64,000 nt of DNA from Mechercharimyces sp. CAU 1602 (GTDB taxonomy: Bacteria; Bacillota; Bacilli; Thermoactinomycetales; JANTPT01), in assembly GCF_024753565.1 (NCBI RefSeq), contig NZ_JANTPT010000001.1, positions 1,445,969 to 1,509,968 on the forward strand. The letters are read 5' to 3'. A program made the position numbers and the translations under genes. Positions 44,343-48,575 of this stretch are shown here, piece by piece; position 1 is the first letter of the stretch, and each line of letters starts with the position of its first letter. The notes beneath the pieces are model-generated. The model was not told the DNA's origin, made no database searches, and saw only the letters and a program-made list of their open reading frames with translations.

Positions 44343-45464
44343 CTACCGTTTCTTCATATACATTTCAAAGGCCCAATGTAACATTGGATGAAGTGGATAA
44401 TCCCACTCCCCGATATACTCACACGCAACGCCCCCAGCACCCAATAGAAAGGTTAATTCGTCGTAAGAGGAAGTAGCTGGATCTAGAACAGGTGACATAC
44501 TGCGAAAATCAAATACAGTTGCCCCCTTCTCATGTGCATCGGATATCATCTCCCAGAAAAGAAGAACCTTCGCAGGTAGATGAACCGGATTTACCTTACT
44601 CGCAGCGTACAAACTCCATACCTGCTCACCCATGCTCACTTTTATCGCCCCTGCCTGAATGATTCCCTCTTGCTCCGCTAGCTGGAGTGGAGAGTCCGCT
44701 TCACTTTCAGCAGATAATGCTCGAAACATCCTCTCAAAATAAGCAAACTCACGTATCCCTTTTCCTTCCTTTTCTGCTTTCTCTTTCAGTAAACTATAAA
44801 AAGTTGGCAAGTCGGATGCGTTTCCTGAACGGACGAGGACTCCTTGTTGGGAAGCTATCTGTAAATTTTTCTCCCACGAGGGCGATAACCCCTGTCGCAA
44901 CTGCTTCGCTGTTCGTCCTTGTAGCGGTATGCGGAAAGTATACTGAGGTTGAACCGTATTCTCCTCTTCCCTTTCCTTTCTACTCCAACCCATCTCCGTT
45001 AGTGCTTGTTGTATATACTCTGACTGCGGATCCACTTGATCCATAGCAATGTCGCGCAACTCTTTATTTCTTAATCCATACTCTTGAACTTTATCCAAAT
45101 ACGCCTCAATTGCGGCCGCCCTCCAATGCGCTAGCGGAACTGGGGGGTCCATCTTAACTGTAAAAGCATCTTGCTTTAACAAATATGCGAATAATGGCTG
45201 GAACCACTGTTCCAATTGTCGTGAATTCCAGTCGATAACAGGACCACGAGGTATGTATGCCAAATGTTTCTTCAAACCTGGCATCTTACGATACAAGATC
45301 ATGGCTACACCTACAAGTTGGCTTTCTTGTGAATACCAACCTACATATTCTGAAGACCATTCAGGTTTTACCTGCGCCCAAACAGGGGCTTGCATAAAAC
45401 TGGCTGCATGCTGCTTTAAGTACGACTGATAGGTGACTTGGTCCACTTGAGCTAGCTGTAACAT
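44343..45464 (-). CDS. FemAB/FemX-family peptidoglycan transferase
   Basis: About 373 residues of the two-domain GNAT-like Fem fold with a helical arm. Blocks such as SFMQAPVWAQVKPEW, KKHLAYIPRGPVIDW, SWEKNLQIASQQGVLVRSG and FDFRSMSPVLDPATSSYDEL are Fem-like. These enzymes add amino acids from aminoacyl-tRNA to the lipid II stem peptide, building an interpeptide bridge. Bacillus subtilis lacks one here. ATG 45464 is preferred over a GTG four codons upstream. It lies between lonB and clpX. Confidence 0.82.
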   Translation of the reverse strand: MLQLAQVDQVTYQSYLKQHAASFMQAPVWAQVKPEWSSEYVGWYSQESQLVGVAMILYRKMPGLKKHLAYIPRGPVIDWNSRQLEQWFQPLFAYLLKQDAFTVKMDPPVPLAHWRAAAIEAYLDKVQEYGLRNKELRDIAMDQVDPQSEYIQQALTEMGWSRKEREEENTVQPQYTFRIPLQGRTAKQLRQGLSPSWEKNLQIASQQGVLVRSGNASDLPTFYSLLKEKAEKEGKGIREFAYFERMFRALSAESEADSPLQLAEQEGIIQAGAIKVSMGEQVWSLYAASKVNPVHLPAKVLLFWEMISDAHEKGATVFDFRSMSPVLDPATSSYDELTFLLGAGGVACEYIGEWDYPLHPMLHWAFEMYMKKR

Positions 45465-45621
45465 TCTCTCGTACACTCCACTTTTTATAAATTTTCTTCA
45501 TTCTTACATTCACACTTACACAAGGAACATCTAAGTCGAGCAACGCTACTATTCTATCATAACTTTTTATCCATCACACAGGAAAACATAATCTACTGTT
45601 TTGACACATCTAGACGAGTCG

Positions 45622-45673: not shown

Positions 45674-46939
45674 TTATGCACTTTCTTCTTTCTTATCGCG
45701 ACTGCGACCTTTACGTGTATTAAGACGAGGTGCTACTCTTTTCAAAACGGTGTCTTCCGTAACTACGCACTTCGTCACATCATCACGGGACGGTAAGTCA
45801 TACATCACATCCAACATGATCGACTCAATAATTGCACGTAATCCACGAGCCCCTGTCTTCCGGCGAATGGCTTCGCTTGCAATCGCTTTGAGCGCATCTT
45901 CTTCAAAGACTAGCTCCACATCATCCATCTCAAACAGCTTCTGATATTGTTTCATCAAAGCATTTTTAGGTTCTGTCAAGATCCGAACAAGCGCTTCTTC
46001 ATCTAAAGGCTCCAGCGTTGAAACTACCGGTAATCGACCCACAAACTCAGGTATGAGTCCAAAGCGTAGTAAATCCTCCGGTAAAGCCAATTTTAGATAC
46101 TCGCCTGCTTTCAAATCAGTACCGCTTTCGCTTTCGGTTCCAAATCCGATCACTTTTTTCCCTATGCGGCGCTTAATAATCTGCTCCAGGCCATCAAAGG
46201 CTCCACCACAGATAAACAGGATGTTACCCGTATCAATCTGGATGAACTCTTGATGTGGGTGTTTCCGTCCTCCTTGCGGAGGAACACTTGCAACGCTACC
46301 TTCTAATATTTTCAATAGCGCTTGCTGTACCCCTTCACCAGAGACGTCACGCGTAATGGATGGGTTTTCTGATTTGCGGGCTACTTTATCAATTTCATCA
46401 ATGTAGATAATGCCACGTTCTGCCTTCTCTACATCATAATCTGCTGCTTGAATCAATTTAAGTAAGATGTTTTCTACATCTTCACCCACATACCCTGCCT
46501 CTGTAAGTGAAGTAGCATCTGCAATTGCAAACGGAACGTTAAGAATCCGCGCCAACGTCTGAGCGAGCAATGTCTTTCCGCTACCCGTCGGTCCAATCAT
46601 GATGATGTTACTCTTAGATAGTTCCACTTCTTCTGTCTTGATGGCAGAATTAATTCGTTTATAGTGATTGTATACTGCAACAGATAGAGATTTTTTCGCT
46701 GTTTCCTGCCCGATGACATATTCATTGAGCACCTCATTTATCTCATGAGGTTTTGGAAGACTTTGCAGATCCATCTCCTCGTCGCCACCAAGCTCTTCTT
46801 CAACAATTTCATTACATAGTTCAATACATTCGTCGCAAATGTATACGCCAGGACCTGCGACTAACTTTCTCACTTGATCCTGCGACTTTCCACAAAACGA
46901 GCACTTTAATTGCCCTTTTTCTTCATTAAACTTAAACAT
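45674..46939 (-). CDS. clpX: ATP-dependent Clp protease ATP-binding subunit ClpX
   Basis: Hexameric unfoldase. N-terminal C4 zinc domain ([16 protein letters not shown]), Walker [12 protein letters not shown], pore loop [16 protein letters not shown] pore loop, and the IGF-type tripeptide in KVIGFG that docks onto ClpP. 421 residues from MFKFNEEKG, preceded by AAGGGGTGA, which lies inside the clpP relic. The intact docking loop implies a working ClpP encoded elsewhere. Confidence 0.97.
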
Positions 46940-46944
46940 GCGAA

Positions 46945-47229
46945 TCACCCCTTGTGAAGGTCTGGCCGGGTGATCACTACATCGACCAAGCCATACGCTT
47001 TGGTTTTCCGTGCACCCATAAAACAGCTTGCGCGATTTCATCGCACTTCAAGATCATGCTAGCGGTTGGCCTGTCTCCGTCAAGGCTCAATCTAACACCT
47101 ATCGCCTCAGCCGCAAGTAGGTGACGTCCATACTCGCAGCCCAACCGCAAACGGATATGTACAATCGGTTCGGTGAACATGGTTTCATTCCAGCTGTAAG
47201 CGGAAGAACAACACCTCCTCCGATACTTT
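46945..47229 (-). pseudogene. clpP: clpP pseudogene (frameshifted, internally deleted)
   Basis: The minus strand holds scattered pieces of ClpP in different frames. One frame reads GGGVVLPLTAGM, matching the SPGG...AGM block, and YISVCGWAASM, matching the catalytic-serine block. Another reads TGQPL, as in the HTGQPLE block. A third ends [17 protein letters not shown], matching the C-terminal EAxxYGLVDxVI block. The N-terminus, the catalytic His region and much of the centre are gone. It lies between tig and clpX, where many Firmicutes keep clpP. Its last codons contain the clpX Shine-Dalgarno. Confidence 0.8.
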
Positions 47230-47263
47230 GAAAAAGAAGGCACGCGATAAGCACACGTGCCTT
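47230..47263 (-). terminator. Terminator after tig
   Basis: An 8-bp stem AAGGCACG/CGTGCCTT is followed on the minus strand by CTTTTTC. It directly precedes the clpP relic. Confidence 0.75.
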
Positions 47264-47282
47264 GTTTCTCTTCTTACTTCCA

Positions 47283-48575
47283 TTATGCCGCATTTTTGCT
47301 GTTGGATACAAGTAGGTCAACCGTTTTCTTTACTTTCACTTGATCTTTAAATGCCTCAATATTCCCTTGGCTATTTAGGATTTGACGAACTTCTTCTAAG
47401 TCGCGATCCATTTCACTTGCCAATTCTTTCAATTCCGCTTCCAAATCTTCATCAGAGACCTCAATGCTCTCTTCAATACCGATTTGTTCAAGAACTAAAT
47501 CAGCGCGCACTTTCTTCTCCGCATCTTCGCGGAATTGAGAGCGGATAGCGTCATCATCTTGACCCAATAGTTGCTGATATTGCTCTAATGTAATCCCTTG
47601 ATAGCGAAGTTGTTGTTCAAATTGTTGCACCATGTGATCTACTTGGCTTTCAATCATTACTGCTGGCAGTTCAATTTCAGCATTTTCTGTTGCTTTTTCA
47701 ACAAGCGAATTACGAATATAATCTTCTTGCTCACGCTTTGCTTTCTCTTCTAAATTCTTACGAGTATCTGCTTGTAGCTCAGCAAGTGTATCAAAGTCAC
47801 TCACATCTTGTGCAAATTCATCATCTAGAACAGGTAGAGACAGACGCTTGATTTCATGCATCTTCACATGGAAAGTAGCTTCTTTACCCGCCAAGTTTTC
47901 TGCGTGGTACTCCTCTGGAAAAGATACTAGTACATCTTTCTCATCTCCTACTTTCATGCCTACCAACTGTTCTTCAAATCCAGGAATGAACTGACCAGAT
48001 CCTACTTCGAGGTTGTACTGTTCTGCTTGACCGCCTTCAAAGCGCTCTCCGTCGATCATCCCATCAAAGTCTAAAATGACGCGATCGCCTTCGGCAACTT
48101 CGCCCTCTTCTACTACTTCGAGCTGACCTTGTTGTTCTTGCATCTTCTTCAGTTCCGCCTCAATATCTTCATCACTTACACTAAAGTCTTTTTCTTCGAT
48201 CTCTAGCTCTTTATATTGTCCCAGCTTCACTTCTGGTTTCACCGTAACCGTAGCTTTGAAGATAAGTGGAGCGCCTTTTTCGATCTGCTCTAAATCAATC
48301 TCTGGTTGATCCACTGGTTCGATCCCAGCTTCTTCAACAGCGGAGCCGTATGCTTCTGGCAACAAGATATCAAGTGCATCTTGATAAAGAGATTCCACAC
48401 CGAAACGCTTTTCAAAAATTGGACGTGGAACTTTCCCTTTACGGAAACCTGGTACACTTACTTTCTTAATCACTTTAGTAAAAGCTTGATCCAAAGCTTC
48501 ATTTACTTTTTCAGCTTCGACTTCTACCGTTAATATTCCTTTATTTGTTTCTGTTTTTTCCCATTTGGCGCTCAT
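47283..48575 (-). CDS. tig: Trigger factor, ribosome-bound chaperone and prolyl isomerase
   Basis: 430 residues from MSAKWEKTETNKG. The ribosome-binding signature GFRKGKVPRPIFEKRFG is at about 44-60, followed by an FKBP-type domain (GDRVILDFDGMIDGERFEGG, about 160-180) and a helical C-terminal substrate cradle. GGAGGGA precedes the ATG. Own terminator; neighbours are clpX and its lost clpP. Confidence 0.97.
   Translation of the reverse strand: MSAKWEKTETNKGILTVEVEAEKVNEALDQAFTKVIKKVSVPGFRKGKVPRPIFEKRFGVESLYQDALDILLPEAYGSAVEEAGIEPVDQPEIDLEQIEKGAPLIFKATVTVKPEVKLGQYKELEIEEKDFSVSDEDIEAELKKMQEQQGQLEVVEEGEVAEGDRVILDFDGMIDGERFEGGQAEQYNLEVGSGQFIPGFEEQLVGMKVGDEKDVLVSFPEEYHAENLAGKEATFHVKMHEIKRLSLPVLDDEFAQDVSDFDTLAELQADTRKNLEEKAKREQEDYIRNSLVEKATENAEIELPAVMIESQVDHMVQQFEQQLRYQGITLEQYQQLLGQDDDAIRSQFREDAEKKVRADLVLEQIGIEESIEVSDEDLEAELKELASEMDRDLEEVRQILNSQGNIEAFKDQVKVKKTVDLLVSNSKNAA

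Follow-up and report, generated by a model that had tools for sequence, protein, structure and literature searches.

A clpP pseudogene between tig and clpX, and parallel loss of its orthologues within one bacterial order

The question raised by this locus is what occupies the 343 bases (minus strand, 47282 down to 46940) that separate the tig stop codon (47285-47283) from the clpX ATG (46939) in the window, i.e., the whole 64-kb stretch of DNA analysed here. A preliminary description had proposed a relic of clpP between tig and an intact clpX, with ClpP pieces in the right order over three frames and with the N-terminus and the catalytic His region missing, and the present analysis confirms it on each of these points: the gap holds a clpP pseudogene. 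When the gap was aligned locally, with frameshifts allowed, to a profile built from 39 intact ClpP proteins of the tig-linked type, the score was 64.6, compared with a mean of 15.2 and a maximum of 23.0 in a control set of 400 dinucleotide shuffles (Gumbel p about 6e-14 to 1e-13), while the opposite strand of the gap scored 13.8, within the range of its own shuffles. Chance similarity to ClpP is excluded.

The recognisable pieces, all on the minus strand, run in the correct order from ITAGM (at about 47201-47187) through GWAASM, the region of the catalytic Ser codon, followed by LLAAEAIGVRL (47149-47090, with a frame change within) and TGQPL (at about 47077-47060), to a C-terminal piece of 25 residues that ends in a stop codon (47022-46945). 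By itself, the C-terminal block scored 48.4 and the middle block, from GWAASM to the C-terminal block, 25.2 (p values in Table 1), and the segment upstream of GWAASM scored 18.4 with a p of only 0.02. An nhmmer search over all 64 kb of the window with a DNA profile of intact clpP genes matched 47088-46958 (E 7e-11) and 47201-47098 (E 1e-4, clpP nt 210-329), the latter backing the earlier assignment of the TAGM piece (model position 210 onward), and found no further clpP place below E 3 in the window. Over 63 nt, the C-terminal block is still 81% identical in DNA sequence to the best-matching intact relative.

The extent of decay is considerable, with the frame changing several times and about 340 nt absent relative to intact relatives. 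The deleted parts comprise codons 1 to about 69, the catalytic-His region and part of the catalytic-Asp region; the first 60-70 clpP codons are unrecognisable, and the exact ends of the deletions are uncertain. The numerous frameshifts together with the missing bases rule out a sequencing slip as the cause. As for ClpP function, no open frame in the gap carries the Ser-His-Asp triad, and the His region is gone. In the longest relic block, changes are distributed almost evenly over the three codon positions, as 4, 6 and 8, vs. 2, 0 and 7 between two intact genes, these being small counts (about 18 differences). A Pfam search of this genome with PF00574 at the default threshold did not detect the relic, so that a plain domain search would miss it.

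Table 1. Features of the tig-clpX region, in positions of the window
Feature	Positions	Strand	Basis or remark
tig, trigger factor, 430 aa	47283..48575	-	TIGR00115, 462.8 bits
Intrinsic terminator 3' of tig	47231..47263	-	10-pair stem + T run
Probable former clpP Shine-Dalgarno GGAGGAGGTGTT	47210..47221	-	inferred from position in intact relatives
clpP pseudogene, full extent	46945..47230	-	frameshift-aware alignment, nhmmer, intact positional orthologue in 37/42 order genomes
Relic block ITAGM...TM-FTEP...GWAASM...LLAAEAIGVRL	47090..47201	-	nhmmer E 1e-4; middle-block alignment p 3e-4
Relic block ETGQPL...C-terminal 25 residues and stop	46945..47088	-	nhmmer E 7e-11; C-terminal alignment p 4e-11
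clpX Shine-Dalgarno AAGGGGTGA	46945..46953	-	overlaps relic's stop codon; conserved in relatives
clpX, 421 aa, intact, IGF loop KVIGFGTES	45674..46939	-	TIGR00382, 700.8 bits

The two ends of the gap are set by signals shared with relatives (Table 1). The terminator is conserved at this place in the order, its hairpin of the form GGCACG...CGTGCC recurring between tig and clpP in nearly all relatives, and directly upstream of clpX the sequence GAGAGGGGTGA / AAAGGGGTGA is conserved in all of them, the stop codon of the relic being part of the clpX Shine-Dalgarno sequence. One detail of the preliminary description needs correction at the tig end: the "GGG" block, listed there among the ClpP pieces, lies in CGGAGGAGGTGTT and sits where intact relatives carry the clpP Shine-Dalgarno sequence, directly 3' of the terminator, so that it is probably better read as the old clpP Shine-Dalgarno than as the PGGS motif of ClpP.

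A comparison of the tig-clpX gap among relatives, which had been suggested as a check, covered 42 genomes of the order. Between tig and clpX, clpP is intact in 37, a relic in four (this genome, G011, G017 and G001) and unreadable in one (G041, whose clpX sits at the edge of a contig); for genomes other than those with the locus compared in sequence, "intact" denotes clpP and clpX match positions side by side. Both the ancestral tig-clpP-clpX order and its decay in this lineage, as proposed earlier, are upheld. Intact copies lie between the same terminator hairpin and the clpX Shine-Dalgarno seen here, and where clpP is intact the tig stop and the clpX start are about 680 nt apart. The relics form a size series, from G017 (gap of about 626 nt, many frameshifts, frameshift-aware score 309) through G011 (497 nt, score 66) to this genome as the third step and, finally, G001 (127 nt), in which only a C-terminal stub reading GLIVQVITHRHFI is left (p 6e-4). 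The segment adjoining clpX survives in all four. In eight genomes of the class that have no clpP between tig and clpX, the gaps hold no relic trace.

The loss has recurred in parallel, a point that the preliminary description had overlooked. In a quick tree of ClpX and trigger factor, many inner branches of which are weak, trusting only the starred branches requires at least three independent origins of the relic state: G011 and G017 belong to one genus, the sister genera of which are intact; G001 pairs with the intact G006; and this genome stands alone in its family. Since the comparison contains no other genome of that family, the loss in this lineage is not closely datable.

Could the gap have been retained for another role, e.g., as a regulatory RNA or a clpX leader related to Listeria rli117? 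An Rfam RF02909 match at 47174-47363 (minus strand; E 1e-4) points in this direction, and so does the terminator 3' of tig, which implies read-through or an internal promoter for clpX. Nevertheless, the match scores 25.7 bits, below the gathering score of 87, and covers mainly the 3' end of tig and the terminator, which are conserved for reasons of their own; promoter-like matches are at chance level (2 found vs. 1.1 expected), and the relic part is not common to the four relic genomes. We therefore regard such a role as improbable.

The relic itself is, judged by its sequence, of the tig-linked positional type of clpP. Its frameshift-aware score is 64.6 against the tig-linked profile vs. 45.3 bits against the profile of copies linked to whiA, and the corresponding nhmmer E values are 7e-11 and 7e-6. 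The C-terminal ITRPDLHKG tail, by which tig-linked copies are typically marked, gives a best score of 90 vs. 68, and every one of the best C-terminal matches is to a tig-linked copy. The two types fall largely into separate parts of a ClpP tree (four label changes for all three groups vs. about 26 when shuffled). These comparisons also bear on the idea that the relic stems not from an ancestral resident but from a clpP that landed between tig and clpX through recent duplication or horizontal gain. Duplicates do exist in the order, whose genomes commonly hold two to three ClpP genes; yet an intact clpP with the same terminator and clpX Shine-Dalgarno is found in the 37 genomes of the order and in relatives within the class, including Alicyclobacillus contaminans, the relic resembles the tig-linked copies of relatives and not the remaining clpP of its own genome, and it has no second DNA match elsewhere in that genome, all of which makes a recent gain highly unlikely. 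It is equally implausible that the stretch encodes a new short protein (an 88-aa frame at 46977-47243 or a 73-aa frame at 47099-47320) or lengthens ClpX by 34 aa at its N-terminus. These frames are open, but the first two lack any Pfam match at E 1, each crosses relic pieces belonging to different frames, and the other relics hold no counterpart; the canonical ClpX start has a Shine-Dalgarno conserved in all relatives and is where the ClpX model begins.

With the resident clpP broken, which ClpP serves ClpX? The expectation that another ClpP must exist was correct: among four PF00574 matches in the genome, one is a full-length housekeeping ClpP (TIGR00493, 340.5 bits) with intact Ser, His and Asp motifs. 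Its gene lies on contig C2, 3' of trxB, rapZ, yvcK, whiA, crh and an antiporter gene, and adjoins rpoN, cggR and gap (gene names as read from translations). The clpX translation keeps the ClpP-docking IGF loop, KVIGFGTES, as had been pointed out, and since this is the single housekeeping ClpP of the genome, ClpX most likely pairs with it. The other three matches, named from their translations except where a model backs the name, were set aside: a prophage head maturation protease encoded between the genes for portal and capsid (L002), a TepA-like protein beside an ftsK/spoIIIE gene (L003) and an NfeD/SppA-like membrane protein (L004). The locus G000:C1:1170000-1177000 (L087) is a structural region of a prophage in which portal and capsid genes flank a head maturation protease related to ClpP.

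A perfect CtsR-type box, GGTCAACAAAGGTCAAA, lies 72 bases upstream of the start of the surviving clpP, on the opposite strand, where chance would give 0.03 such boxes in 17 kb at one mismatch; it is one base off the box reported for clpP1 of B. anthracis (PMC8419472). Such a box is found upstream of the whiA-linked clpP in most relatives, and none with fewer than four mismatches occurs in any tig-linked gap. The presence of the box at the survivor and its absence from tig-linked copies argue that the surviving clpP is an older, stress-regulated paralogue, which the preliminary description had likewise not recognised.

Taken with the intact orthologues, these observations are almost certainly accounted for by decay of a tig-linked clpP, probably lost as redundant with the other ClpP and probably worn down between constrained flanks. 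The ancestor of the order would have possessed a pair of clpP genes: a copy between tig and clpX that lacked a CtsR box and was apparently co-transcribed with its neighbours, and a second copy under a CtsR operator at the trxB-rapZ-yvcK-whiA-crh locus. With the other ClpP available to ClpX, the tig-linked copy may have become dispensable in this lineage, and would then have been eroded by frameshifts and deletions. Selection on the two bordering signals, the terminator of tig and the Shine-Dalgarno of clpX, may bound this decay, so that the last surviving piece would be the C-terminal stub adjoining clpX. The earlier suggestion that the clpX Shine-Dalgarno limits deletion of the relic fits four of four relics; neutral decay with protected flanks would give the same picture. 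Overall, this is ordinary gene loss for which no new mechanism is needed.

A broader pattern is a serious possibility that we put forward tentatively: the order may repeatedly lose (at least three times) the ClpX-linked, CtsR-free clpP while keeping the CtsR-controlled copy, the relics persisting from the clpX side because the Shine-Dalgarno lies in the old clpP end. If true, such biased loss would place all ClpXP proteolysis of those lineages under heat-shock control.

In gene order, the relic lies exactly at the place of clpP in the tig-clpP-clpX(-lon) operon of Alicyclobacillus contaminans and most genomes of the order, an arrangement also found in E. coli and many clostridia; the terminator and Shine-Dalgarno flanks are those of the order, whereas clpP is here broken by frameshifts and deletions. 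The outcome approaches the Bacillus-type arrangement (tig-clpX without clpP, a single clpP near whiA, a CtsR operator), with the same remaining locus and a CtsR-type box, and differs from it in that a recognisable clpP relic remains between tig and clpX. The presumed ancestral state of the order corresponds to that of two-ClpP bacteria such as Listeria, Clostridioides difficile and the Bacillus anthracis group, with two housekeeping ClpPs at separate loci (reviewed in PMC9753991 and PMC8419472); unlike these, the present lineage has returned to one ClpP. A literature search returned these two-ClpP reviews but no work dealing with this order or describing a relic of a tig-linked clpP. The pseudogene itself is of an ordinary kind, and what the analysis adds is the parallel, staged loss within one order and the identity of the surviving paralogue. 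Gene losses are usually seen only as presence or absence, whereas here four stages of disappearance stand beside intact copies, illustrating how an operon can lose one internal gene yet retain the signals of the neighbouring ones. The relics also mark lineages passing from two housekeeping ClpPs to one, with ClpX left relying on the other ClpP. We consider the locus a neat case, not a system of a new kind.

Several minor observations concern the same neighbourhood. In the window, a FemAB-family gene (44343-45476, minus strand; PF02388, 132.5 bits) lies between clpX and two lon genes, a place at which Bacillus is not known to carry one. In G038 (L068), the tig-linked clpP is the only clpP found, the whiA-linked copy being missing or not assembled, and the trigger factor has diverged strongly (about 28-31% identity). 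In G015 (L019, 1212-1361), a 62-aa second N-terminal ClpX zinc-finger piece, 61-64% identical, stands between clpP and clpX and is probably a partial tandem duplication. Finally, clpX of G001 (L066, 1379-2646), the only clpX found in that genome, is split into two overlapping frames with a break at residue 224/225, which may reflect a frameshift, a sequencing error or recoding.
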